In this document: positions 567 through 62,687 of the stretch, one piece after another
Numbering within the stretch: the first letter of the stretch is position 1
Layout of the letters: each line of letters opens with the position of its first letter
DNA from: Bryopsis sp. KO-2023
Taxonomy: Eukaryota; Chlorophyta; Ulvophyceae; Bryopsidales; Bryopsidaceae
NCBI GenBank assembly: GCA_030272585.1
Contig: BSYQ01000006.1
Span: 5,047,001 to 5,111,000, forward strand
DNA length: 64,000 nt
Direction: 5' to 3'
Position numbers and translations under genes: made by a program
The notes under the pieces: generated by a model
Told to the model about the DNA's origin: nothing
Seen by the model: only the letters and a program-made list of their open reading frames with translations
Databases searched by the model: none

Positions 567-569
567 ATT

Positions 570-598
570 CACTATGGGAAATCCACCCCTGTGCGACC
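570..598 (+). repeat. Left terminal inverted repeat of the CACTA-like element
   Basis: Twenty-nine bases starting CACTATGGGAAATCC and ending TGTGCGACC. They match the complement of 4627-4655 at 28 of 29 positions; the single difference is C versus T at the 14th base. ATT lies immediately outside. Confidence 0.9.
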
Positions 599-918
599 GT
601 GCGAAAATACGGTCGCACAGGTTTGGAAAGCCAAAGCCGCTTTCCACGAAGCGAAAGAGTGGTTAACGCTTCGGGGACGTTCGGCGTATCTGGGTTCGAC
701 TCCCAGACGCCCCTTCTGAAAGCTCTGATGAAAATTGGAGCATTTTCTTATGTTCGACGACACAGTCGTCAGGGTGGGTCGGGGACGGGAGAACAAGCAG
801 GTCGCACGCGACGTGCGACTGAACTGATAAGGTCGCACCGGGAAACAAACAGGTCGCACACGATGTGCGACTTTCACTTTAGTCGCACAGCGTGTGCGAC
901 TTCGTGTGCGACTTGTAT
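591..918. repeat. Left subterminal GTCGCAC motif cluster
   Basis: Repeated GTCGCAC / GTGCGAC heptamers in both orientations. They include a perfect hairpin at 591-618 (10-bp arms GTGCGACCGT and ACGGTCGCAC, 8-nt loop) and paired copies near 808-825, 862-890 and 890-918. The same heptamer dominates the right side of the element, as expected of transposase-binding subterminal repeats. The binding role is inferred. Confidence 0.75.
655..715 (+). ncRNA. tRNA-3'-half-like sequence inside the CACTA-like element
   Basis: A stretch resembling a degenerate tRNA: GAGTGGTTAACGC looks like a D-arm/A box, and CTGGGTTCGACTCCCAG (690-706) is a perfect T-arm/B box. The T-arm is extended by a GGCGT/ACGCC stem (683-687 with 707-711). 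There is no matching 5' acceptor strand and no convincing anticodon arm, so this is a tRNA-derived or tRNA-mimicking relic, not a functional tRNA gene. Confidence 0.35.
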
Positions 919-1125
919 TTTTTTTCTTCTTCTTCCTAATCCGTGGCCAGCAGCGATATGACTAATCACTGCAACAACAAAACCTATACGACGTTTTGGT
1001 TTCATTTTCTTCGGCACCCTGCTTCCAGCCCAGCGCCCCCACGAGAAAGCTGCTTCAAGACGCGGCTCTGTTCGTCAGGGATTTTTCCTTGGCTTCCGTG
1101 TTTGGGGGGGCTTGCCAGATTGGAA

Positions 1126-3193
1126 ATGGAGTCGAATGATGGCGAAGCCTCCAAAAGAGAGGCGCTGCGGAAAGCCGGTCAGGACTACTTTCAAAAAGCT
1201 TTGAAGGAGCAAGCTGAGAAGGGAAAAACTCCGAACGAATGAAAGAGAAAGTTGCAGCAAGGGGGCCTTGGAGTGGAAGGGAGTGTCGAAGCGGAAGACC
1301 AGGATTTTGAAGCAGTGGGACGAGTGATTCAAGGCTCTAAGTATTACGTGTTCTTGGCTGTGTATGCTGCCTGCCAAGCCGCTGGGCTGGTGCTGCTGGA
1401 GGTAAATGTTTTGGTTGTAATTGGGAAGCTGATTATGTTTAACCCCCCCCCCCCAAAAAAAAAAGTAAGAAACCCTCTTTGATCAAATTGAAAAAAGACT
1501 GGGAAAAGGTAAAAACGAGGGAGGGGGGGGTGTCCTGTCAAACAAGATTTTCTAATGTTTTATTTTATTAATAACGTTTGGGGGGTGGGGCCTGGGAGTT
1601 GCTTATAGCCAATCAAAATCAGAAAGATAGGATGCAGATCCAGCTGTGTATTTTGTTGCTGAAAAAGCTTCTATATGTATGTCGTTTTTTAATCTTTGTT
1701 TCCCTTCGACTTCCAGCCTGTTCCTGGAAATAGGCGAACATAACAATTCTCAGTGCGAAAAAAAGTGACAACCGCCATTGCAAGAAGGAAGATAGGAACA
1801 TGCAATCCCAAAAAACAAGCCTTTCGCTGTAAGGTGAAGAGTGGCTTTATTTTGTTTGCGACAGAGATGCGCTCGGCTGGTGAAAACTCCGTTTCTAATT
1901 GCATTTTGGCACATGATTCCGTTGCCGCTTGTCCTATGGGGATTAAGCCTGGCTGGAATAGTTTCCCTGAAAAGCTATAGCTGGATGAGGCTCCGCTCCA
2001 ATCTATTAGTCACGCTTGTCCATGCAATCCAAGTGAGTAGCAGCTCAGTCACTGTCTGCTGAAAATTTATGCCCTTCCTGGAAATATTGTGTGTGTGTAT
2101 ATTCCATTTTTTCTGCCATCAACACCTACTTCAAAAGTCGAATTCACAGTTGTGCATTGGACAAAGTTTGGCCAATGGCAAGCAGCTGCGGAAACCCTCC
2201 ATAATCAAGGATCTGGGAAGCTGCTTGCAATTTTTTCACATGCTCGCTCATGAAAGAATTGGGTTGTTTTTTGGTGCCTATCATTTGTTTTTGACTTGGT
2301 TTCAGGTGCATCTGTGTTTCGCAGTTTTTGTCCCTTGTTCTGGGGGTGTGCTTCAAGGCGTGGTTTTCCTTATCACCTGGATTTGCTTTTCGCTGATTTT
2401 GCTGGAGGTGGCTTTCGATGTGCAAATTTTCGGGAAATCGATGCTCCGTAAACAGCAACTTGCGTTGATGATCGGTCTCGCTGGCTTCTGTAAGTTGTTT
2501 TGGCTGAAAGCATTCTCTAAGGAAAAAGCATTGCACTCACTCACAGTTGGAAATGTTTTGCCTGAAGAAACCGTATGGTTAGTTGAACTGCCAGACTAAG
2601 CTTGAAAGAGGTGTGTACAAGAATGTGAATAGATAAAAAAATGGGGTTGGGTGGTGCAGTGGTTCAGGCCAGCTCCACGGATGATATGGGGGGCGATGTC
2701 CATGTTGGTGTGGACAATTGCTCAAGGAGGAAGGTTCTTACTGTCGCTGGTCGAAAGAGACACTTCGACAGCATCTGAGCCGGCCAAGAGGGTGGAATCC
2801 ATTTTAGGTAAAACACACCAAAACAATCACCCCTCTTTCTTCCCTGTCCTATTCATGTTTTCAAAGGGTTTTGTTTGGTTCATGAAACGTACCCCCCCCC
2901 AGCAAAAGCTGATTCGAAATCGACGCCTTTTCTTTTTGTTATTTTTGCAAGGGAATTCTGACCCGGATGAAGAAGACAAATTGTTACGAGAGTCGGCTGT
3001 GAAATGGGAGCCTGCAGATCACATGTTTTATCAACATGCCGTCCCAGCCATTCCGGTGTTAATACTCGGCTTCCTGTTCTTGTTTTCCTATGCCTTCCAC
3101 AGCCTAATCAGAGTATTCAGAAAATGGAGGGGTATCCATGGTCGGAATGGAAAGCTGCATGAAGGGAAGTCGATGAACGATCCGAAGAGGTGA
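1126..3193 (+). pseudogene. Multi-pass membrane protein gene carried by the CACTA-like element, with an in-frame TGA
   Basis: Not recognised as a known family. A frame opening at the ATG at 1126 (MESNDGEASKREAL...) meets one TGA at 1240-1242 and continues open in the same frame to a donor after 1401. Four further exons join in phase: 1865-2032, 2306-2489, 2673-2807 and 2952-3193 (stop). The protein has about five or six hydrophobic segments, among them YYVFLAVYAACQAAGLVLLE, a Trp/Leu-rich pair in the second exon, two in the third, and AIPVLILGFLFLFSYAF near the end. The tail is basic. Either the TGA is a nonsense mutation in a captured gene, or the first exon lies elsewhere and 1258 is a real acceptor (TTGCAG). 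The spliced structure argues that a host gene was captured at DNA level, not through a retrocopy. Confidence 0.55.
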
Positions 3194-3597
3194 CCGGCAA
3201 TCACGGTTGTGGGGAGCAAATAACGATACGAATTCCGATGTGCTCTGTTTGCCCCGGTTCCTCTTGAAGGGGGTATGTCTGTGGTATGATGGGGGCATCA
3301 AGGGTGGCAGGGGGGGTACACTGTGGGGAAAGGAAGTGTGATGAGGGGGGTATGGATTTACCTGTTGATTTTGATGAGGGCTCTTGCTGGAAGCCACTCT
3401 GGCTGGAACCAGGGAACATAGATTTTCTAGGGGAACTCAGACTGGAAGAGAGGTCGATGTTTTGATCGAGAAAGATTGGAATGGTGAAGTTCTATGGGAA
3501 TTGGAATATATTTGAACGAATGTTTTACCTCTGGGTGGGAATTGTTGTTTATTGGGGGTGGGGGAAGGAATGATATGTAATATGAGATTAATGTTGT

Positions 3598-4412
3598 AAG
3601 TCGCATATGGGTGGCTACCTGGTCGCACACAGGTGCGACCTAATTTCCACGACTTTTTCCTCGGTCGCATATGGGTGGCTACCTGGTCGCACACAGGTGC
3701 GACCTAATATCCACGACTTTTTCCCCGGTCGCATATGGGTGGCTACCTGGTCGCACACAGGTGCGACCTAACTGTGACGACTTTTTCCTCGGTCGCATAT
3801 GGGTGGCTACCTGGTCGCACACAGGTGCGACCTAACTGTGACGACTTTTTCCCCGGTCGTATATGGGTGGCTACCTGGTCGCACACAGGTGCGACCTAAC
3901 TGTGACGACTTTTTCCCCGGTCGCATATGGGTGGCTACCTGGTCGCACACAGGTGCGACCTAACTGTGACGACTTTTTCCCCGGTCGTATATGGGTGGCT
4001 ACCTGGTCGCACACAGGTGCGACCTAACTGTGACGACTTTTTCCCCGGTCGCATATGGGTGGCTACCTGGTCGCACACAGGTGCGACCTAACTGTGACGA
4101 CTTTTTCCCCGGTCGTATATGGGTGGCTACCTGGTCGCACACAGGTGCGACCTAACTGTGACGACTTTTTCCCCGGTCGCATATGGGTGGCTACCTGGTC
4201 GCACACAGGTGCGACCTAACTGTGACGACTTTTTCCCCGGTCGTATATGGGTGGCTACCTGGTCGCACACAGGTGCGACCTAACTGTGACGACTTTTTCC
4301 CCGGTCGCATATGGGTGGCTACCTGGTCGCACACAGGTGCGACCTAACTGTGACGACTTTTTCCCCGGTCGTATATGGGTGGCTACCTGGTCGCACACAG
4401 GTGCGACCTAAA
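3598..4412 (+). repeat. 64-bp tandem array, about 13 copies, with a 128-bp higher-order period
   Basis: Units run GGTCGCATATGGGTGGCTAC, then CTGGTCGCACACAGGTGCGA, then CCTAACTGTGACGACTTTTT, then CCCC. Each contains the palindromic pair GTCGCAC...GTGCGAC. From about 3791 onward ten successive units alternate strictly between GTCGCATATG and GTCGTATATG (starts near 3791, 3855, 3919 and so on to 4367), so the true repeat unit is a 128-bp dimer. The first three units differ in the spacer (AATTTCCAC, AATATCCAC), marking an older edge. Degenerate GTCGCAC copies continue to 4640. The array lies within the right arm of the CACTA-like element. Confidence 0.9.
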
Positions 4413-4626
4413 GCTTCTGCGACCTCAATATTTCGGTCGCACACACTTATGTCGCACACAGGTGCGACTGTTTTTTGTCTCTGCGACTGGGAACTGCATC
4501 AAAGACGTCACCTCTGTGCGACTTTAAATTTTAGGTCGAATACGGGTGGCTACCTGGGCGCACAGGGGTGCGACCGTTGACGTCGCGTGCACGACTCTGT
4601 ACACTTCACTGCGACATTACAATTTT

Positions 4627-4655
4627 GGTCGCACAGGGGTGAATTTCCCATAGTG
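4627..4655 (-). repeat. Right terminal inverted repeat of the CACTA-like element
   Basis: Complement of the left terminus with one mismatch, ending TTTCCCATAGTG and followed by the ATT target duplicate at 4656-4658. Confidence 0.9.
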
Positions 4656-4658
4656 ATT

Positions 4659-5084: not shown

Positions 5085-6146
5085 TTATCCACAGAGCTTG
5101 CTGTTGGTTGATGTGTGGAGGGGTTTGAAGGCTGGGCGCTTATGAGCACCCTGAACACGGCCCGTCGCAATTTCCAGATGCATCGTGATTTTGAACTTAT
5201 CCCTCAATTCCATGGCCAAAGATGCCTCCCCGGCATTGGAGCAGGAATTCACCAGCGCGGCGGCGCTCTCCTCGTCGATCTTCACTCCACGCCGCCACAT
5301 GCTTTTGAACACACCCAGTGATTCCTCCCACATGCCCTCCCGGGCAAGACTCCGCAACAGTGAATTGTAAACGTCCAACGCGACATCGATCTTATATTTC
5401 TCCATCTCGAACAGCAACGCGATTCCAACGTCTGGCCTTTCGCACTCCTCACACGCTAGCATGAGCGCGCCACACACTTCCGAATTCACGTCCACGCCCA
5501 GCATCTGCATGGTCAGAAACGTTTCCACGGCGTAGTCCAACCCCCTCACACCCGAGCAAGCGGTGATTATTTCAGAATACTCTTGCCGAGTAGCCGCCAT
5601 CCCTTCACAATGCATGCTCTCCAGGATCATGGCCGCATCGCTCCACCTCCCGCTGGCCGACAAGGAGCGCAGCAGCGCCATGAGGATCTTCCTATCCGGG
5701 TCGAAACCGGCGGCGATCATCTCGTCGAACAGATGGAAGACGTCCCGATACCATTTGGCCTTGGCGAGCGCGGGGATCAGCGATCGGTACACCACGTGAT
5801 CAACCCGCCACTCCGCATTCGATTTGGACACCCCTTTCATTCGACGGAAGAATTCCAGAGCCTCGGAACACCTCCCCGCGGACGCGAACACGGCTATGAG
5901 CGACGTGTAAGTGATGACGTTGGGCCGAACGCCACGAGACTCCATCGCGTAGAAAATCTCTCTGGCCTTGTCGCATTGGCCCCGTTTTCCGCACGTAGCT
6001 ATCAGGGTGGTGAATCCCGCGATGGTTATGTCGAAACGGCACGATTCGATCAGCTTTCGTATCTGCCCCGTGCCCACCGCAGCCGACCTCAACGTCTTCC
6101 TCAGCTGTGAAACGGAGGTGACGGCATTGGGGTTAGAAAGTACCAT
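5085..6146 (-). CDS. P-class pentatricopeptide repeat (PPR) protein
   Basis: PPR proteins bind organellar RNA sequence-specifically and control its processing, stability or translation. The uninterrupted 353-residue frame holds about eight consecutive 35-residue motifs from roughly residue 38 to 335. Examples start DITIAGFTTLIATCGKRGQC, NVITYTSLIAVFASAGRCSE, HVVYRSLIPALAKAKW and ALDVYNSLLRSLAREG. No E, DYW or SMR domain follows; the protein ends in a basic tail. The frame stays open upstream of the ATG to a TTTTAG at about 6207-6212, a possible 3' splice site, so a first exon with the organelle-targeting peptide may be missing from this model. Codon use is GC-rich compared with the flanks, typical of coding sequence here. 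The RNA target cannot be read from the sequence. Confidence 0.88.
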   Translation of the reverse strand: MVLSNPNAVTSVSQLRKTLRSAAVGTGQIRKLIESCRFDITIAGFTTLIATCGKRGQCDKAREIFYAMESRGVRPNVITYTSLIAVFASAGRCSEALEFFRRMKGVSKSNAEWRVDHVVYRSLIPALAKAKWYRDVFHLFDEMIAAGFDPDRKILMALLRSLSASGRWSDAAMILESMHCEGMAATRQEYSEIITACSGVRGLDYAVETFLTMQMLGVDVNSEVCGALMLACEECERPDVGIALLFEMEKYKIDVALDVYNSLLRSLAREGMWEESLGVFKSMWRRGVKIDEESAAALVNSCSNAGEASLAMELRDKFKITMHLEIATGRVQGAHKRPAFKPLHTSTNSKLCG

Positions 6147-14072: not shown

Positions 14073-14365
14073 TTGGTCATCGTTCATGCATAAAACCTGA
14101 AACACTCCTCCATTTTGTTCTACCATTCTCGCGCGATATACCTAGCCTACGGCGAAAATAAAGTCCGCCCAGCGTTGTCTCCTGAAGCGCCCAGCGTTTC
14201 GATTTTTCGCCAGGCTGGACAGGTCCATTTTTCTTGCGTGCGGGAAAGAGGGAAAGAACCAGCTCTGGTCGAGGGCGTGAAAGGGGAAAAAAAACAGTGA
14301 CGGTGCGTTTCTTTTTCGAGGAGGGATCGAAAGGGAAAAAAAAAGAAGCGAGAACCAGGCTGCGC

Positions 14366-16600
14366 ATGATGTTGTTGGAGTCTGGGGAAACGCTGCCACC
14401 CACGCTGCAGTTGGGCAGGCGCGGAGCGAGCTGCGACATCGAACGCAGTGGCTCGGATGTAGGCGGGAGGACGTCGGCGTTCAGCGTCGACCCCAAGAAT
14501 TTACGGGTCTTGGAAGATGTCGGAGAGGGGGGGTTTGCAACTGTGAAACGCTGCGAGTTGACCGTCCCTGGCATGGGGAAGGAAATCGTGGCGGCAAAGC
14601 AGCTGAAGGCGGACTGCTTCGAGCGCGACAGGGAGTTCATCGACTTCATTGCTGAGACGCTGTTGATGAGCCGGCTGAACCACCCCAATATCGTCCGCTT
14701 CAAGGGTCTCTGCGAAGGGAAGCTCGGCGGGGACGAGGGAGTGGAGGGGAGCCCAATTTCGGTGGTGGGGGAGTACATGAACATGGGAACCCTCACCGAC
14801 CAGCTCGACGCACAAATGCGAGGGTCGTCACTGGCGTACACAAAGGCGTCAGGGATGCGGTGGATGCTGCAGGTGGCGAGGGCGTTGGAGTACCTGCACG
14901 GCTTGAACGCGACGGTTATCCACCGTGACCTCAAGCCTGAAAATATCCTCTTCACGCGCGACGAGCTCACGCAGGAGGTCGTCGTGAAGGTCGCCGACTT
15001 TGGCCTGTCGGCGGTGGTGCGCAGGCAAAAGAAGGCCCGCAGCGTGGATATCAGGAGGGAAGGGCTGATTCCCGCCGAGGGCGGGAACAGCTTTACCTCC
15101 AGAGGCTCGGGGGAGCTGTGGGGGATGCAGCACAAGCACGCCGTGCGATTGCTCTCGCCCGACGTGCGGTCGCGAGTGGTGGGCAGCAACCTCATGCGCA
15201 GCGTGACGATGATTTCCAACGTCTTCGAGCCGTGCGATGGGACGCCCAAGGTACAGTCGAAAGGCGAGGAAACGAACGCTCGGGAAAACATTTACTTTCA
15301 GGGTATCTCGCGGATGCAGTTCTACGCCGATTAATGTACTATAGCTAACTACTGCTTATTAAAATCCTATTTTTAGCACTAGATAGTATCTAAAATAGGA
15401 GCAAAGATATCTGCACCTTTGCCAAAGGCCCCCAAAGCTTTCCAGCCAGCAGAGGGTTTCTCTGGAAGAAATGCGTGCTAAAGAGGAAAGGAAATGGGCC
15501 AAAAAGAAGAAAAAGAAATTCTGGCCTCACCAGGATGGCTGAAATTTTAACTTTTATTCACTGATTTTTAGATATCTTTGGTGAGCTGCATATCTATCAG
15601 GTGGGACCCCCTTTGGCTCAAAATATATCACCAATTCAAAAAGAGGGGCGAAACTCGATTCCTCTAGAATGTCAAATTTTGCCACCTACCAAGATTTCTC
15701 CAGACACCCCCACCCACACACCAGTTTGACCATTGCACTCTTTTATTGTTTTGAACCAACACACACACATAAACAGCCCCAATGGAAAGGTCTATCCTTC
15801 CTATCAACAAGGAGAACAATTTCTATGGAGTCTGCGAAGCCTTTCGAAGCGCTCTCTCAATCGAAAGCCCCCCACAAAGATACATGCATTCAGCAGGAAC
15901 AGGAGAACAACAAGTACTGAAACGCATGAGAGATTTTTTTTTTTTGAAAGTGGGTGTGTCAAACCACAACTGAGTTAAAACACCACTTACCGTTCGCAAC
16001 ACATGCATAAAAAAACCAAAAAGGGAAGAAGAGTGACCAGTATTTTTTTTTTCACGGGGATGTCTCAATGGTTTAGTTTTTATCCATGGTGCTTTTGAAA
16101 ACCGATGTGGTACTTTATGTGTGTATGTGTTTTTGTTTTTTTTTCCCCAGAGCTCCCGGAGAACGCCCATCGACGTTTATCACGATTTGTCCGGACGGAC
16201 AGGATCGTTGATGTACATGGCCCCTGAGGTGCTCTCCTACAAAAAATACAACGAGAAGGTCGACGTCTACTCCTTCGGCATCATCCTGTACGAAGTCATG
16301 GCCCGGAGCAAGCTCATCTACATGCTGATGACTAATGCCAAACCGGGCCAAGAAGTGGCCTCCCAAGTGAGACGCTATTCCGAGAGCGTGCAGAATGGCT
16401 ATCGACCTCCGATTCCTCTGCAATGGCCTCTGGGAATTCGATTGTTGATCGGAGATTGCTGGCAACATTGCCCGGCAGATAGACCCTCCATGAAGGAGGT
16501 GGTTGGACGATTGGAGGCGGCTCTGAAAACAGAAGTCCAAAAGGAGCAACGAGAGGAGGAAGCGAGGGAGGGGGCGTGCGTTTGCTGTTCGATAATGTAA
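14366..16600 (+). CDS. TKL-type protein kinase with an enlarged activation loop and a CaaX box
   Basis: Two exons, 14366-15250 and 16151-16600, join in phase 0 (donor AAG|GTACAG, acceptor CCCCAG|AGC) to give 444 residues. All catalytic landmarks are present: Gly loop VGEGGFATV (about 52-60), Lys78 in VAAK, HRDLKPEN (Asp188), DFG (211-213), YMAPEV (APE near 319-321) and the DVYSFGIILYE helix. The DFG-to-APE segment is about 110 residues instead of the usual 20-35; it is Arg/Ser-rich and is interrupted by the intron. The protein ends CVCCSIM, a canonical CaaX box (C-S-I-M, favouring farnesylation) preceded by cysteines that could be palmitoylated. There is no signal peptide or transmembrane segment, so attachment to the inner face of a membrane by lipidation is the likely mode (inference). 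A second ATG at 14369 could also serve as start. The substrate is unknown. Confidence 0.9.
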
Positions 16601-19899: not shown

Positions 19900-21222
19900 C
19901 TATGTTTCCACCCTGACTCCACCGTGAAACACTGCCATTCGAGCTGGATCAACCTTGGTGCTTTTCACATTCAAGTGGTTTAAATTGGGCAGCTGAGACA
20001 ACCCACATATCCCCCCAAAACTAACCCGAGTGTACGACACATCCAGCGAAACAAGTCTGCTCAACCTGCACAAATTTTCCATATAAACATCGCTGATTTT
20101 CGTGGAGCCTAGATCAAGTTCTTCCAACCCCCACATTCTACCCAGCCATGGCAGACTCGCCGAATTCACCGCCGTCGAGCAGACTTTCAATATCCTCAGG
20201 TTTTTCAAGGCGGTCAAATCCACCATGCAATCCCCAGCAATCCATGTTCCTCCGAGAGTCAAAGACCTCATCTCAGTCAGACTCCGGATGTAGCACAGAC
20301 CGTTGTTGGTCAGGCGAGTCCAAGACAAATTCAGCTCTGTCAACCTGGTCAAGCAAGCCAAAAATTGAATCCCATCATCGCCGATGGACGTCCCATGCAA
20401 ATAGAGCGCCTCCAGATTCTGCAGCGACACTATCGAACACAAGCCATGGTTGGTGATCCTCGCCCAGCCCAACTCCAGCCTCCGCAGCTTCGTCAGCTCC
20501 ACCAACCCCTCCAATCCTTTGTTCGACACGAAAGTCTCGCTCAAATTGAGGCAAGTCAGACGCGGCAAAACCCGCAAGCCGCTCACCCCATCCCCCCGAA
20601 CCTGAGTGTTGAATAGGCTTAATTCCTCCAGTGTGGATAGCTTACCCAGGTGGTTCACCCCAGCGTTAGTCACTCTGGTGTATCCCAAATCTAACGAGGT
20701 CAGACCTGGAACCACCCTCAGTTCATCCACCAGCGAGTCCCCCACATTCGTCGACGACAGGTTCAACCTCCGCAGCTGAGTGATGTCTGGCAAAATCGAA
20801 GCCATCCCTTTTCCCCAGACGCCGGTCCCCCTCAAATCCAGCTCAATCAAATGATTGAAACCCAGGATTGCCTGTCGAAGATCTGCTGGGGTCATCAGCC
20901 CCGTCACCCTCAAGCATTCCAGCCCAATCAGCTTTCTTCTCAGAATATCCATGGCATCAGAGAATGATCCAACGATGGTCTCTGAGTCAGCCACTTTGAC
21001 GTTCGCCTTTGAAATGGCTGTGCTGACTCCAGCGCACCATTGCTGGTTGACCAGGCGAGCGTTTTTTAACGAAATCAAGCACAGGTGCGAAGCCACATTT
21101 CCAAGTATGTCTTTAGGCAGCGCGCCCCAACCCTCGAAACCCTGAAATCGATCGAGACCACTTGAATTCGTTTTCACCGAAACAAAAATATATAGATCAA
21201 ACATACAAAAATCAACGACCAC
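19900..21222 (-). CDS. F-box/leucine-rich-repeat protein
   Basis: Probably a substrate receptor of an SCF ubiquitin ligase. An F-box-like motif (ALPKDILGNVASHLCLISLK, with NARLVNQQW following) precedes at least 12 leucine-rich repeats of about 23-24 residues, such as LTSLDLGYTRVTNAGVNHLG, LRRLELGWARITNHGLCSI and LTELNLSWTRLTNNGLCYI. Their pattern (LxxLxLxxTxIxxxGxxxL) is that of the cysteine-containing/GALA-like subclass. The main exon starts at 21141 after the acceptor GATTTCAG and ends at the stop at 19900 (413 codons). The frame continues open to 21222, so the true N-terminal exon is unresolved and residues before GFEGWGALPK may be intronic. The protein looks intact. Its target is unknown. 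Confidence 0.85.
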   Translation of the reverse strand: MVVDFCMFDLYIFVSVKTNSSGLDRFQGFEGWGALPKDILGNVASHLCLISLKNARLVNQQWCAGVSTAISKANVKVADSETIVGSFSDAMDILRRKLIGLECLRVTGLMTPADLRQAILGFNHLIELDLRGTGVWGKGMASILPDITQLRRLNLSSTNVGDSLVDELRVVPGLTSLDLGYTRVTNAGVNHLGKLSTLEELSLFNTQVRGDGVSGLRVLPRLTCLNLSETFVSNKGLEGLVELTKLRRLELGWARITNHGLCSIVSLQNLEALYLHGTSIGDDGIQFLACLTRLTELNLSWTRLTNNGLCYIRSLTEMRSLTLGGTWIAGDCMVDLTALKNLRILKVCSTAVNSASLPWLGRMWGLEELDLGSTKISDVYMENLCRLSRLVSLDVSYTRVSFGGICGLSQLPNLNHLNVKSTKVDPARMAVFHGGVRVET

Positions 21223-23707: not shown

Positions 23708-26700
23708 ATGTGGAAAAGAAAAGTGCAATTGCATTTCGAGCATTTGATGGAAGATAGCTTGGATGAACGGAGCATCCATGATGTGGTAAAAGCGTTGAGC
23801 AGTAAAATTCGCTCCAGAAGGCGGAAGAGTGTTGCTCGTCTTGCTGATCTGTCCCAGGTAATTTTTCTTCAGCAAAATTAGCTAATTTATCCTTTTTTTT
23901 CCCTATGTATTTTTCCTTGCATTTCAGATCATGATCTATTTTTAGTTTGTTGTTTTGACATGTCGAAAAAACAAATCCATTTTTTGCATCGGGAAAAAGA
24001 AAAATAAACACCGAAACCCCCCAAAAAAGTGCTTTAGTCATTGGGTGTTTTGAACTTAAAATGCCAACATTTGCAGGACTCGACGAATCGCGAGCTGATG
24101 GTGAAAGATGGGGCTCTGGAGCCCCTGATCAAATTGCTCGAGCGGGATGAGGGAGAACACCAGTCCCACGCACTGGCCACTCTATCTTCCTTAGCATCAA
24201 GCCACGCATACCTTCGAAAAGAGCTTCTGGCAGCCGGGATCGTCCCTGCCACTCTACCGCTCTTAGCCAACGATAATCCAGACATCAAATGTGGGGCTGC
24301 CTGCGTTCTTTACCACATAAGCTGCGACAGGGAGGGAGGAGAACAAATCATCGATGCGGGGGCTGGGGCGGAGCTTTCCAGAATGTTGTTTCGAGGGGAG
24401 ACATCCTATGAAGAGTGGGTGATCCAGCTGATCGGAAATTTGATCCAAGACCACCCCCAGATGATGCAAATCATTGCCCAATCGGGGGGTGTCGGCAGAC
24501 TCGTGAGCGCAGCCTCGACCAGCTCCGGATCAAGAGTTTATGCTGTCAGGGTTTTGGCGTTGATTCTCGAAGCAGATTCGAAGGATGCTGCCGGTTCTCT
24601 GAACAAGGGGGAGGTTCAAACGATGGTCTTGACTGCTGGAGGCATTCCGTTGATGATCGAAGCTCTGACGCCAGTATCGGGTGATCGAGAAATGGGGAAA
24701 TGGGCGATCCGGGGCCTTGCCCGGATTTCCATGCACGATCCCAGCAGGCAGGCGATTTTCACCTACCATGGCGTTCAAGCCATCGTTCAGATGCTGTGGG
24801 AAGACGATCAACTGGTTCAGGAGAGCGCTGCAAAAACGGTGGCGTTTTTGGCTTCGTCCCCGGTGGTCGGAATAGAGCAGTCCTTGAGCAAGAGTGTTCC
24901 ACCCTTGCGAGAATTTCTGGATGCACCGTCCAATGGATTGAGGCAGTGGTCAGCCAAGGCGATAGGAAACCTAGCAGAGCTTGGAAAAGAGCTCCAGATG
25001 ACGATCAGCGAAGAGGGCACTGTGGAAAAACTGGTCAGGGGACTGGATGCTCAGTCCCACTGGGTGAAGTTGGCGATGGTTTCTGCTTTGGAGAGCCTCA
25101 TCAAGGACTGCCCAGCAAACCAGGATTTGGCCATGACCTGCGGGGCGATGCAAGGCTTGTGCCGAATAGCATTCGGTCTGTCGAACGCCAACTCCATGGT
25201 CAAAATTGCCCTGGGGGTGATGTCGATGCTGTGCTCTGAAAGCGTGGACAGCCAACGAGTGGTAGTCGAACAGCTGGATGGAATTAAGGGGCTGCTCACC
25301 ATCTTGAGCAACAGTGGGGAGGACCTGGTTGTGTCAGCCCGGTTCAGAATGGCATTGAAATTGCTGGAGGAGCTGGTGCAAGCCCCCGAGACGATAAATC
25401 AGGTTCGATCCGAGTTCCTGTTCAAGGGGGGCATGCGCTTGCTGTCGGCGGTGTTCGAGGTGAATGACCCGGAATGCCAATCCACCGTGATGAAAATTAT
25501 TTTCAGGATCGCGGATGGAAGTCCGGAGGGGGTTATCGATGGCAGCCTCCGGGATAGCGACATCAACAACATGGTCCAAGCCCTCCGGTCAGACTCCGAA
25601 AGCTGCCGGGCTGAAGCAGCCAACACGCTGGCAACCCTGGCCGATGCCTCGTTTCTGTACAGTGCCCAGATCATCAGCAGCGGAGGCCTGGCCCCACTGG
25701 TCGAGCTCTCCTACTCAGGAAACATCAACCTGATGACCCAAGCTGCAAAAGCTCTGACAAGCATCGCTCGAGGGAGTCAGGAGAATCGAACGCTGGTGGC
25801 GGAGGCCAACGCGGTGCCTCCATTGGTGTTCATGATGGATATGGGCAATGAGGAGTGTGCTAATGAGGCGGTGAGGGCGTTGGCTGCGATTGCTGAGGAG
25901 GATCAGAGCAACTTGTTGCTGTTGTCTCATGAGCCCGTGTTGGAGCCTCTGGTTTCGAGGCTGAAGGGGGCCGATGGGGAGAAAGCCAGGGATGTGGTGG
26001 TGCTGTTGTCTTTGTTGAGCAGGACCCTGACGCCGAAGGAGGCTCAGATGTTCGAGGAGAGGGCGGTACATGACGTGAGTGAGTGGACCTTGTGGGAGGC
26101 AAACCACCACATGTCGATCTTGGCTGGGAAATTATGAATCAGTCAAAGTTGTAGAACTGGTCCCCCTCTTCCCCCCCCCCCCCCCAAAAAAAAAGAAAGA
26201 AAAAAATATATCAAGAAAAGCAGAGATGGTTTCGTATTTGATTTTCATTGTGGATTCGACACTGTGGTTTCTTTCGGAAACCGTATGATGTTTATATTTG
26301 GAATTACACTCGATATAATTCCAAATGTCAGTTTCAAAATGTTCTGGAAATTTTTGTGCCTTTTTATTGAAACTTTGTTCACATTGTTTTCTTTTTTCAT
26401 TTTTGGGGCTAGGTCATCGAAGGTTTAAAGGAAATGGTGACGGCTGGGGATTCGGACAGCCAGATCCGGGCCTTGAAGGCCATGAAAGGAATAGCTGATA
26501 GTCCAGTGTGCGCCCAAGAATCGATCCTAGGCACCATCAGCAGTCTCGTCATTTTCCTCATCGAATCCAAAAACAACGCCGTCCGCCAGCAAGCCAGTTC
26601 GGTTCTGTCCCAAATGGCATACCAGGTGAAAGTCCTGGCTCCAAACATTCGGGAAGGCGGTTTGCCGGTGTTGATTCCTTTCCTCAAGGGCTCCAGTCCG

Positions 26701-59546: not shown

Positions 59547-62500
59547 ATGTGGTGGATTTCGACGCTCGCTCTGGTATTAATAGCGCTAGGAGTGGGACGG
59601 GGCGAAACGAATGCTTCTTTCGTCGCCGTTGCGAATACGGGTGTGGAGCTCCACGCCCACATATCAAATGTCGTGCACCACGCGACGGCGGAGTGTTGCG
59701 TGATCGAGGTCGGACAGGACATCGCCATCGACTCCGACCTTTTTTCGCCCACTCCGATCTTCACGCGGGACTGCGTCATCAGAGGCGCTTCTGAGGAGGT
59801 CGCGCTCAAGTTTGAGGAGCTGGTACCGATGTTTTCTGCGGCGAAAAATGTCACCGTGCGGATCGAAAACTTGAGAATTCACCACAAGGCGTCCGTGTCC
59901 CTGTCGGCGATGTTCCTGGGGATCGTTGTCTTGTCGTCGGACGCGAAGCTGGTGGCGAGTCGAGTAAGGGTCGGGGTGCGCGAGCGGTCGTTCGAGCTGT
60001 TGGAATTGGACCTGAGTCTGGGAACGCTGCCCACAGGCGATGTCGCCCTGAGCCCGAGGTTCGTCAACGTCACGCAAGCGAATTTCGACGCGCTGCATCT
60101 CAGGAACGTGAGCGTCGTGGAGCTGGGGAAAGAAGACTTTCTGGACTGGCCGTTGCAGACGACTTGCGTGATCGACACGGCGGCGGACTTCGTTCACTAC
60201 ATGCAGGTGGCGCAGACCGCCAGCAAAGGCTACCCGATGGAGCTCGTCTTGAACAGGACCATAACAGTCACGCGCGACGACTTTGATGGCGCTTTCCCGA
60301 CTGTACGGAGGAAAGTTGTTGTACGGGGTGCGCGTCCAGGGACAGCCCTGCACGTCGCCCTCGACTTGGGAAACGTCGACTTTATCAAAGTGCAGAAAGG
60401 GGGGCAGCTGGTTCTGAAAGATCTCACCTTTCAGTTCTTCAGCCCCAGAAACCTGCAACGGGGCGACTGGGACCAAGGCCTGCCGATTCGCTTCAACACC
60501 AGCAGCCCGTCTTGTGAGATTTACTCTATCAACAGCAGCTGGGCGACGGATTGCGACTACGTGAACCGGCTCGCGAAGCACTTTCTTTACATATCTCAGG
60601 GCCTGACGAAAAAACTGAAAGGCGGGAGGAGATCGGTGTTGAACCTGGGGCCTGGGGACAACAGCACCGTGGAGATTGAACGGGCGATTCAGTCTGGGGC
60701 GTGTTTCTCCAAAGTGGACGTCACCTGCAAGGTGCCCGACCGCGATCCTATGGAATACGCCACCCAAGGCTATGTTCAACGGCGTCGCGCCGAGCAAAAG
60801 GAAGGGAGCGATGGCGCCGGACACAAGTCGCGCGAAAAAGTGAAGGTTTTGATCGTGGTGGTGGTTCTGGTCGGGGTGCTGGCAGTCGTCACTCTGTGTG
60901 CCTTCGCCCTGAAGTCTGTCAATTGCAAGCGCGCGGGCCGCGTCGAACGCGAGAAATCGAGCGCAAGCGTCACGGACATCCTCCATTGCAGGACGGGCAG
61001 CATGTTCGGATACAGTGGCGGCGAAATGCCTCGTCCTCGATCGGCGGCGACCACCACGGATACGCGAACGGAGCTGCTGGACGAAATCAAAGAGGAGAGG
61101 CGTGGTATGGGGGATGAAATTCTTCAGCTGAAAGAGCAGGTCGGGAGTGGTGAGTGGACTCATGTGTAATATCGTCATTAAGACCGTGGGGTGGCGTTTC
61201 CTGCAAGCGCTTGCAGGAGATGGTGTCTTTCTTGTTGGCGGAAGGGAAAATTTCCGACCACCATCGGCAGTGGTATTGAAGGGATCTCCATCTCAGCCCC
61301 CTCTATTTCTGGAAGAAAAAATGGTTGCATTCCAGGGCTCGCCAAAGAAGAGCCCTCACCACAATCCATGTATGCTGTTGTATTTGCAGGTGGATATGGT
61401 GTGGTTCACAAGGCCATCTGGCACGGGCTACCCGTCGCGGTCAAGACCGTCGTTTTCCAAGATGTGGAGGGAAGGTACTCCAGACACAAAAAACGCGTCG
61501 TGTATGAGGCCGCCATCAGCTCCAGCATTTCCCACCGAAACATCGTCCAGACATACCACTACTTTTTCCGAAAGCTGGCGCCCGAGGCGCCGTCCGGCGC
61601 CCCCGCCGAAGTCACGGTGGGGACGATCGATTGGAAAATGTTCATCATCCAGGAATTCTGCGAGTTGGGGTCGTTGCTGAGGTCCGTCAGGCGAGGCATG
61701 TTCGTGGATATGGACACTCGAGCACCGGATTTTTTATCGATAATACACCTCGCCCACGACATCGCCTGTGGGGTGCGGCACCTGCACGCGCACAACATCA
61801 TTCACGGGGACCTCACCGCCAGAAACGTGCTATTGAAACAAGACCACTCAGGCATCGTTGCTAAAATCAGCGATTTCGGCCTGAGCGTCAAGCTGAACGG
61901 ACGTCAAAACCACGTGTCCAATCATCGTGCAGGGACGCCTCTGTACATGGCGCCCGAACTGGGGCTGGATGGGCGATTGTCCAAGAAATGTGACGTTTAC
62001 TCTTTCGGAATAATCTTGTGGGAGCTGTTTCATTTGTCCCTGCCCACACCGATGGCTTTCGCCAAAGGTCAAAGTCGGCCTCGATTCGCATCATCTTGCC
62101 CCATGGCATATGTTCTCCTCTGTGCGACTTGCCTCAGTCCTAATCCGGACCACCGCCCTGATTTCGCCAGACTCACGGAAATCCTGTGGAGGATGATGCA
62201 CCTCGCACCGACGGAAGAGTTGCTGAGCAGGTTTGGCGACGAGTTCAATCTGAAATGGATGTCTGACTTGAGCCCATGGGAGGTGCTGAATGTGCTGGAA
62301 GAGAGGCTGCCTTTTGTTCACCCGGTCGACTCTATAGGGAGGGCTGGCTCCCCATCGGGCAGTGCATTGACCGATCAAGCTCCGCTTTCATCCCTGAGCG
62401 TCACCCATCACATTAGAATCCCCCCCAGTTTGCATCCCGAGATTTACACAACCCCATCGGATGCACCTGGTGGGGCTGGGGAGGACCCCGAAACATGGAC

Positions 62501-62687
62501 AGCTCAAGAAAAGGCGCGTGGAAGCAGTATGGATGAGGTCACCAGCGAAAGGTCGGGCGATCTTACTGGGGAAGTGCTTCAAGGGTCGATTACGGTGGAT
62601 TGGAGCCACACCGTAGACACAGATTTGGTCAGTTTCGGGTGGGTTAAGAGTGGTGGCAGCGCAGATCCTGAAGGAAAGAAGAGATGA
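59547..62687 (+). CDS. Receptor-like kinase with a novel ectodomain and a non-RD TKL kinase domain
   Basis: Two exons, 59547-61149 and 61390-62687, join inside a Gly codon of the ATP loop to give 966 residues. A signal peptide (MWWISTLALVLIALGVG) is followed by a ~410-residue ectodomain with several N-glycosylation sequons and a repetitive beta-strand pattern, then a single membrane span (KVLIVVVVLVGVLAVVTLCAF, about 432-455), a juxtamembrane segment and the kinase. The loop VGSGGYGVV is complete only after splicing. Other landmarks are VAVK (Lys553), HGDLTARN (Asp675), DFG (696-698), LYMAPEL and DVYSFGIILWELF. The Arg of HRD is Gly, so it is non-RD. A Ser/Pro-rich tail of about 190 residues follows the kinase fold. 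The ectodomain was not recognised; a beta-helix is only a guess. The ligand is unknown. The tail has a decayed duplicate at 13674-13881. Confidence 0.9.

Follow-up and report, generated by a model that had tools for sequence, protein, structure and literature searches.

Structure of the element in the window

The window, by which we mean the whole stretch of 64,000 nucleotides analysed here (C6:5047001-5111000), belongs to the genome of Bryopsis sp. KO-2023, of which 91.09 Mb in 28 contigs were searched, and contains a CACTA-like element with the remnants of a spliced gene inside it. The features of the element are presented in Table 1. An earlier note on this DNA had described 29-bp inverted repeats starting with CACTA and identical at 28 positions, a perfect ATT duplication outside them and GTCGCAC-type motifs inside. 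All three were borne out: positions 570-598 and 4627-4655 are complementary at 28/29 nt, ATT stands at 567-569 and again at 4656-4658, and the motifs are present internal to each end, forming on the right a 12.7-copy array of a 64-nt unit. Elements of the En/Spm (CACTA) superfamily are recognised by a CACTA start, a 3-bp duplication and repeated subterminal motifs. The family to which the window copy belongs resembles them in all of these respects, with CACTA-starting terminal inverted repeats present in the family and repeated subterminal motifs present at both ends of the window element.

Table 1 Features of the CACTA-like element in the window
Feature	Positions	Strand	Basis or detail
Left target-site duplication copy, ATT	567..569	.	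Flank comparison
Whole non-autonomous CACTA-like element, 4086 bp	570..4655	+	One of 16 paired copies
Left terminal inverted repeat, CACTATGGGAAATCCACCCCTGTGCGACC	570..598	+	
tRNA-like module	674..713	+	Outer stem 674-680/707-713, T-stem 690-694/702-706, T-loop TTCGACT 695-701
Left subterminal GTCGCAC/GTGCGAC motifs	801..913	+	
Captured host-gene segment, introns included	1079..3076	+	Homologous to C7:1138195-1140431 (reverse strand)
Exon 1 remnant	1126..1401	+	In-frame TGA 1240-1242, common to 14/14 gene-bearing copies
Exon 2 remnant	1865..2032	+	Hydrophobic by sight
Exon 3 remnant	2306..2489	+	1 base shorter than C7, likewise in 14/14 copies
Exon 4 remnant	2660..2807	+	8 nt lost after 2681, in the window copy only among 14
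Exon 5 remnant	2952..3076	+	64-nt loss near 3077, among 14 only in the window copy and C14a
Right subterminal array, 64-nt unit x 12.7 with GTCGCAC/GTGCGAC	3600..4411	+	
Right terminal inverted repeat, variant with T at position 14	4627..4655	-	
Right target-site duplication copy, ATT	4656..4658	.	Flank comparison

The exon model was built from splice sites and from comparison with a homologous locus on another contig (C7), and its outer borders, ~1126 and ~3076, are approximate; the homologous stretch of the window copy ends within its lost 64 nt near 3077. Comparison of the cargo protein with Pfam and PDB gave no match. The earlier note had placed a multi-exon membrane-protein gene inside the element; the gene is indeed spliced, but it is not an intact working gene, as the shared TGA and the 8-nt and 64-nt deletions demonstrate. 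Thus, the captured gene of the window copy is dead.

A family of paired copies

A search of the 91-Mb genome with the terminus, in which any base was accepted at position 14 and up to three mismatches were allowed, gave 36 matches, while the reversed-sequence control gave none; the terminus is not unique to the window. Thirty-two of these termini form 16 inverted pairs distributed over 8 contigs, leaving four ends unpaired, and the paired elements span 2,298 to 19,127 bp, so that the search for further inverted copies proposed in the earlier note was answered with 16 pairs of 2.3-19.1 kb. Each of the 16 pairs has one end with C and one with T at position 14 of the terminus, so what appears as the sole mismatch between the two ends of the window copy is an inherited left/right difference. 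Identical 3-bp flanks, representing 10 different words, surround 11 of the 16 pairs, and the copies occupy many sites with 3-bp duplications, as expected of the mobility that the earlier note had claimed. If these copies were instead immobile blocks of a segmental duplication with inverted ends arisen by chance, the lack of a perfect duplication in the other five (C2c, C2d, C6a, C13 and C14a) would be accounted for, but the probability of this is negligible in view of the number of pairs and contigs, the variety of perfectly duplicated words and the empty control.

The gene-bearing interior is common to 14 of the 16 elements, including the window copy, and copies C2d and C2e have only parts of the backbone in common with the rest of the family. 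The nearest copy to the window element is C14a (98.6% over 3,864 columns). Insertions are present in C12b and in the two longest copies. In C1a, one nested ORF encodes both a reverse transcriptase and a tyrosine-recombinase domain (Pfam) and is taken to be DIRS-like, and a second nested ORF looks Gypsy-like by sight; C13 contains a nested DDE_1 ORF (Pfam) together with a retroelement ORF.

Origin of the captured segment

Only one other strong match to the cargo gene was found in the genome, at C7:1137347-1140379, where two extra exons are present and the sequence fits seven exons with splice sites. A composite query of the cargo exons retrieved, among the best candidates scored, the 14 elements, C7:1138196-1140238 and one match at E 0.5. 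For C7 exons 6-7 there was no other genome match below E 0.1, and one at E 0.6. The alignment of C7 with copy C2a has 2029 identical positions in 2264 columns over 2.24 kb, introns included, and the similarity stops at both borders. The captured segment starts ~50 nt before the ATG (window position 1079) and stops just past exon 5; it thus excludes exons 6 and 7 and most of the upstream region. Since the introns are retained, capture at the DNA level is the direct reading.

Within the 9.5 kb around C7, even the best candidate for an element end differs at 6 of 18 positions. Nine 12-nt words there can be matched to CACTATGGGAAA with three substitutions or fewer, a number that we estimate to be at chance level. 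The subterminal sequence of the element was absent at C7 in the BLAST comparison. The capture of a host gene, suggested in the earlier note, was thus supported by a fuller homologue without matching ends, and the Pack-TYPE sign of a host-gene fragment with another copy outside the element is present. A course of events in which host DNA would have been captured with its introns and then amplified is well supported by these sequence comparisons, because C7 has two extra exons and no matching end in 9.5 kb. At least 14 copies descend from one ancestor holding a host-gene DNA segment that is now represented by C7.

The reverse relationship, in which the membrane-protein gene originally belonged to the element family and C7 derives from an element whose ends were lost, would agree with the presence of the gene in 14 of the 16 elements and with the smaller differences of exons than of introns among the copies. 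It is nevertheless highly improbable: the two further exons of C7 are in frame, have splice sites and recur nowhere else below the threshold given above, element subterminal sequence is missing there, and C7 is open at the site of the stop common to all 14 element copies. In exon 3, C7 has one base more than every one of these copies and is therefore out of frame. Thus, C7 may be the donor itself, in a damaged or misassembled state, or the segment may have come from a sister of C7.

Decay and possible selection in the captured copies

The TGA in exon 1 and the one-base loss in exon 3 occur in 14/14 gene-bearing copies, and many copies have acquired further frame-breaking indels; losses of 11, 2, 30, 6 and 121 nt were recorded in copies other than that of the window, along with single-base changes. 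Copies C2a, C2c and C5 differ from C7 by just two indels across exons 1-5. Among the elements, divergence amounts to 1.8% at codon positions 1 and 2, 2.3% at position 3 and 2.8% in introns; between the elements and C7, the corresponding values are 3.4-4.5%, 5.9-7.8% and 8.8-10.7% (the intron value from 14 copies). The pN/pS ratio ranged from 0.35 to 0.46 in six comparisons of C7 with elements.

An important question is whether the captured copies have themselves been under selection. Some selection is possible because pN/pS is 0.52 pooled among the elements and 0.58 in six diverse copies, with a bootstrap interval of 0.30-0.99. That selected copies produce a shortened membrane protein, which the small number of indels in C2a, C2c and C5 would also favor, is quite unlikely in the face of an in-frame TGA in every gene-bearing copy and of frame-breaking indels in many. 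The gene piece would rather be passive freight, because the exon 1 stop is common to 14/14 copies.

Search for a transposase and an autonomous partner

None of the 16 copies showed a recognisable transposase; for 11 of them this was judged from their similarity to the window element. In C1a, C13, C12b, C2d and C2e the ORFs were listed, with eight viewed in full and three scanned with Pfam, and within the ORFs examined the 16 copies fit the Pack-TYPE sign of having no transposase coding sequence of their own. In this respect the family differs from En/Spm, as no tnp2/tnpA-type gene was recognised inside the copies. C1a and C13 were considered as autonomous copies and rejected, their extra length being due to nested insertions.

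Elsewhere in the genome, a profile search with PF02992 (Transposase_21) found one locus above the cut-off, with two matches (C12:548569-549374), and a protein search found tnp2-type loci at C12:546208-549000, C10:699769-701478, C12:1314989-1315414 and C1:9725557-9726725. Around the first two of these four loci, the surrounding 9-10 kb contained no matching ends: the closest end-like sites have 5 and 6 mismatches of 18, respectively, and 12-nt end words occur there only with 2-3 substitutions.

Related ends of the CACTATGGG type numbered 172 by one loose pattern and 305 by another, with no match in the controls; being so common, they point to a wider set of CACTATGGG elements in this genome. 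Their places were taken from the first ~100 of the 172 and of the 305 among the matches listed, and in the regions examined among these no autonomous copy was seen between related ends. Two long relatives with such ends were rejected as autonomous: one of 13.7 kb instead contains a SWIM domain (zinc finger) and an ORF that is Gypsy-like by sight, and one of 9.6 kb (L043) contains hAT dimerisation fragments. Thus, an autonomous relative with a DDE transposase, which the earlier note had recommended looking for, was sought between matching ends in the regions examined and not found.

These results bear on the possibility that the family belongs to another DDE superfamily that has CACTATGGG ends by chance. 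The SWIM and hAT pieces in the relatives and the lack of a tnp2 gene between matching ends in the regions examined would speak for it, but these pieces may be cargo, and the CACTA start, the 3-bp duplication and the subterminal repeats are CACTA signs. Duplications are 8 bp long in hAT and ~9 bp in Mutator elements, against 3 bp here. We therefore regard another superfamily as unlikely. For a CACTA-type family, an enzyme acting in trans is plausible; movement would be by cut and paste, catalysed by a tnp2-type (Transposase_21) enzyme provided from elsewhere, which would bind to the termini as well as to the subterminal repeats rich in GTCGCAC.

A tRNA-like module near one end

Near its left end, the window element carries a tRNA-like module, in which one pair of the outer stem is broken in the window copy. 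The exact word TGGGTTCGACTCCC is found in 14 of the 16 copies of the family and is damaged in C2d and C2e. It lies 85-115 nt inside 105 CACTATGGG ends (control 0), and the module-bearing ends fall into at least five end-families with differing sequences in between. Among 18 ends compared, most of which were selected for carrying the module, 13 have it, and the B left, B right, D right, y and z ends do not. A motif AGTCGTC follows at +41 to +72 after the module in 13 of 16 module ends compared.

Across the genome, 211 matches to the 15-nt module word were counted, against none in the control. Twenty further sites were sampled from the first 100 among the matches listed. Fifteen of them form five groups, each represented by two to five sampled members; one is single, three (L063, L065 and L066) look like CACTA variants, and one (L062) lies near an unpaired end of the window's family. 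The module is thus present in other repeats besides the related end-families.

Another question is whether the module is part of a tRNA gene. ARAGORN found no tRNA gene in the window or in the 20 short sampled sites, and Rfam gave none in the window. With introns allowed, ARAGORN made three calls in the sequences then collected. Two use the T-arm of a module: in L043 the call is a tRNA-Ala whose intron measures 23 nt, and in L013 it is a tRNA-Lys whose intron measures 713 nt. The third, in L025, overlaps no module. In the L043 call another 5' strand takes part in the pairing, and no call was made at the sister ends L050 and L051. We took these calls as degenerate or chance matches and rejected a tRNA gene at the left end; a decayed tRNA origin of the module is possible. 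No common distance to a downstream TTTT, as a Pol III terminator, was found.

Folding was assessed by covariation and by permutation. When 13 modules were aligned, double changes were seen at three pairs, in 9 cells, a value reached in 0 of 500 shuffles; the count of double-change pairs is by itself unremarkable (88/500 shuffles). A narrow rule for the outer stem, which allowed too few T-stem offsets, gave a mean of 3.43 pairs against a largest permuted mean of 3.9, and because it did not exceed the permutations, the rule was widened to offsets 0-3. Under the wider rule, which was set after the data had been seen and applied to 14 cluster representatives that are not all independent, the stem beside the T-arm has a mean of 5.64 pairs against 3.27 with swapped partners (0/5000 permutations), and 9 of the 14 representatives have at least six pairs. 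Taken together, the data support a conserved fold resembling the top half of a tRNA, that is, a T-arm and an acceptor-like stem with a short linker.

The B-box/T-arm word is known from tRNA-derived SINEs and other tRNA-like RNAs. In contrast to such SINEs, most module sites here are not called as tRNA genes, a short linker joins the acceptor-like stem and the T-arm, and the module is carried by an element with inverted ends and 3-bp duplications. We tentatively suggest that several CACTA-like and other repeat families may bear a selected tRNA top half near one end, which the elements would use, as a structured RNA or a TFIIIC-type element, to be expressed, to be processed by tRNA enzymes or to be shielded from silencing. 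In the window's family, the module might then act at the RNA or chromatin level, a role to which we attach low confidence. We know of no CACTA biology that accounts for such an end module.

Relation to known elements and significance

The family resembles the Pack-CACTA and other Pack-TYPE elements of Arabidopsis and maize, for which a capture model is outlined in the main texts of PMC8903248 and PMC13317346: these are non-autonomous, CACTA-ended elements with host coding DNA that have multiplied in the genome. As far as those texts describe them, our family differs in that a single five-exon capture with introns is present in 14 of 16 copies, one end has a tRNA-like fold, and the regions examined yielded no autonomous element with its ends. 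Neither algae nor Chlamydomonas are mentioned in the two main texts, and a diatom paper (PMC7017206) has the term Pack-CACTA in its references only. Among green algae, the CACTA- or En/Spm-like element Jordan of Volvox carteri, as described in one passage of PMC5093975, likewise combines an algal CACTA-like element with ends that fold as RNA. There, the inverted ends form the fold, that of a miRNA precursor, whereas here a T-arm-like module lies inside one end; a cargo gene is unmentioned for Jordan in that passage. Literature searches, which mostly did not cover subscription journals, found no report of a CACTA element with a tRNA-like module at its terminal inverted repeat, only a moss genome paper on the subject of CACTA gene capture in green algae, and otherwise nothing matching by title or abstract start.

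Thus, the window very probably holds a non-autonomous CACTA-type, Pack-CACTA-like element with a captured host-gene segment that has been amplified. This assignment rests on structure, namely the ends, duplications, subterminal motifs and cargo; by structure the family is of a known kind, and the tRNA-like end module is its unusual part. In this small genome, the likely donor locus, the cargo and the descendants of one CACTA-like gene capture are all in view, and therefore the borders of the capture, its amplification and its decay can be read directly.

A tRNA-like module near one end of CACTA-like elements

Close to the left end of the element lies a T-arm with an acceptor-like stem of the tRNA type, and this module also occurs at 105 ends of the CACTATGGG type across the genome. 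At least five CACTA-like end-families, together with other repeats, have the module in common, and its outer stem covaries. The word AGTCGTC follows 41–72 nt past the T-arm in 13 of the 16 module left ends compared and, in some module ends, sits inside a hairpin. With introns allowed, ARAGORN predicted a tRNA-Ala (93 nt plus a 23-nt intron) over the module of L043, a 9.6-kb relative; under the same setting, no tRNA was called over the module of its sister ends.

Related elements, tnp2-like sequences and other ORFs of the window

A 13.7-kb relative (L040 and L041) has CACTATGGG ends and is flanked by the duplication TTT; of its ORFs, one carries a SWIM zinc finger and another is Gypsy-like. L043 includes an internally duplicated stretch with hAT C-terminal dimerisation fragments. 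Sequences of the tnp2 (Transposase_21) type are dispersed in the genome (L036, L042 and L083); a search of L036 and L042 for ends matching the element found none.

About 430 bp from the element is a 353-aa ORF that, judged by sight, looks like a pentatricopeptide-repeat protein. Four further ORFs in the window were also judged by sight: among them are likenesses to protein kinases, to a leucine-rich-repeat protein and to an armadillo-like protein.

Locations of the module, relatives, paired T-arm words and window ORFs
Feature	Location	Strand
Module	window 674-713	
13.7-kb relative	C1:5328220-5341879	
9.6-kb relative (L043)	C2:5301311-5310937	
Predicted tRNA-Ala	L043, about 133-248	
Outward-facing pair	C1:7897426/7897887	
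Outward-facing pair	C4:281886/282339	
353-aa ORF	window 5085-6146	-
Further ORF	window 61191-62687	+
Further ORF	window 14234-15334	+
Further ORF	window 19900-21222	-
Further ORF	window 24041-26137	+

The T-arm word of the module in other repeats

The same T-arm word is present in further dispersed repeats, which fall into groups (L064, L071-L073 and L078; L069 and L070; L060, L074, L075 and L077; L067 and L076; L059 and L068), and some dispersed repeats carry it twice, facing outward, with ~450 bp between the copies.
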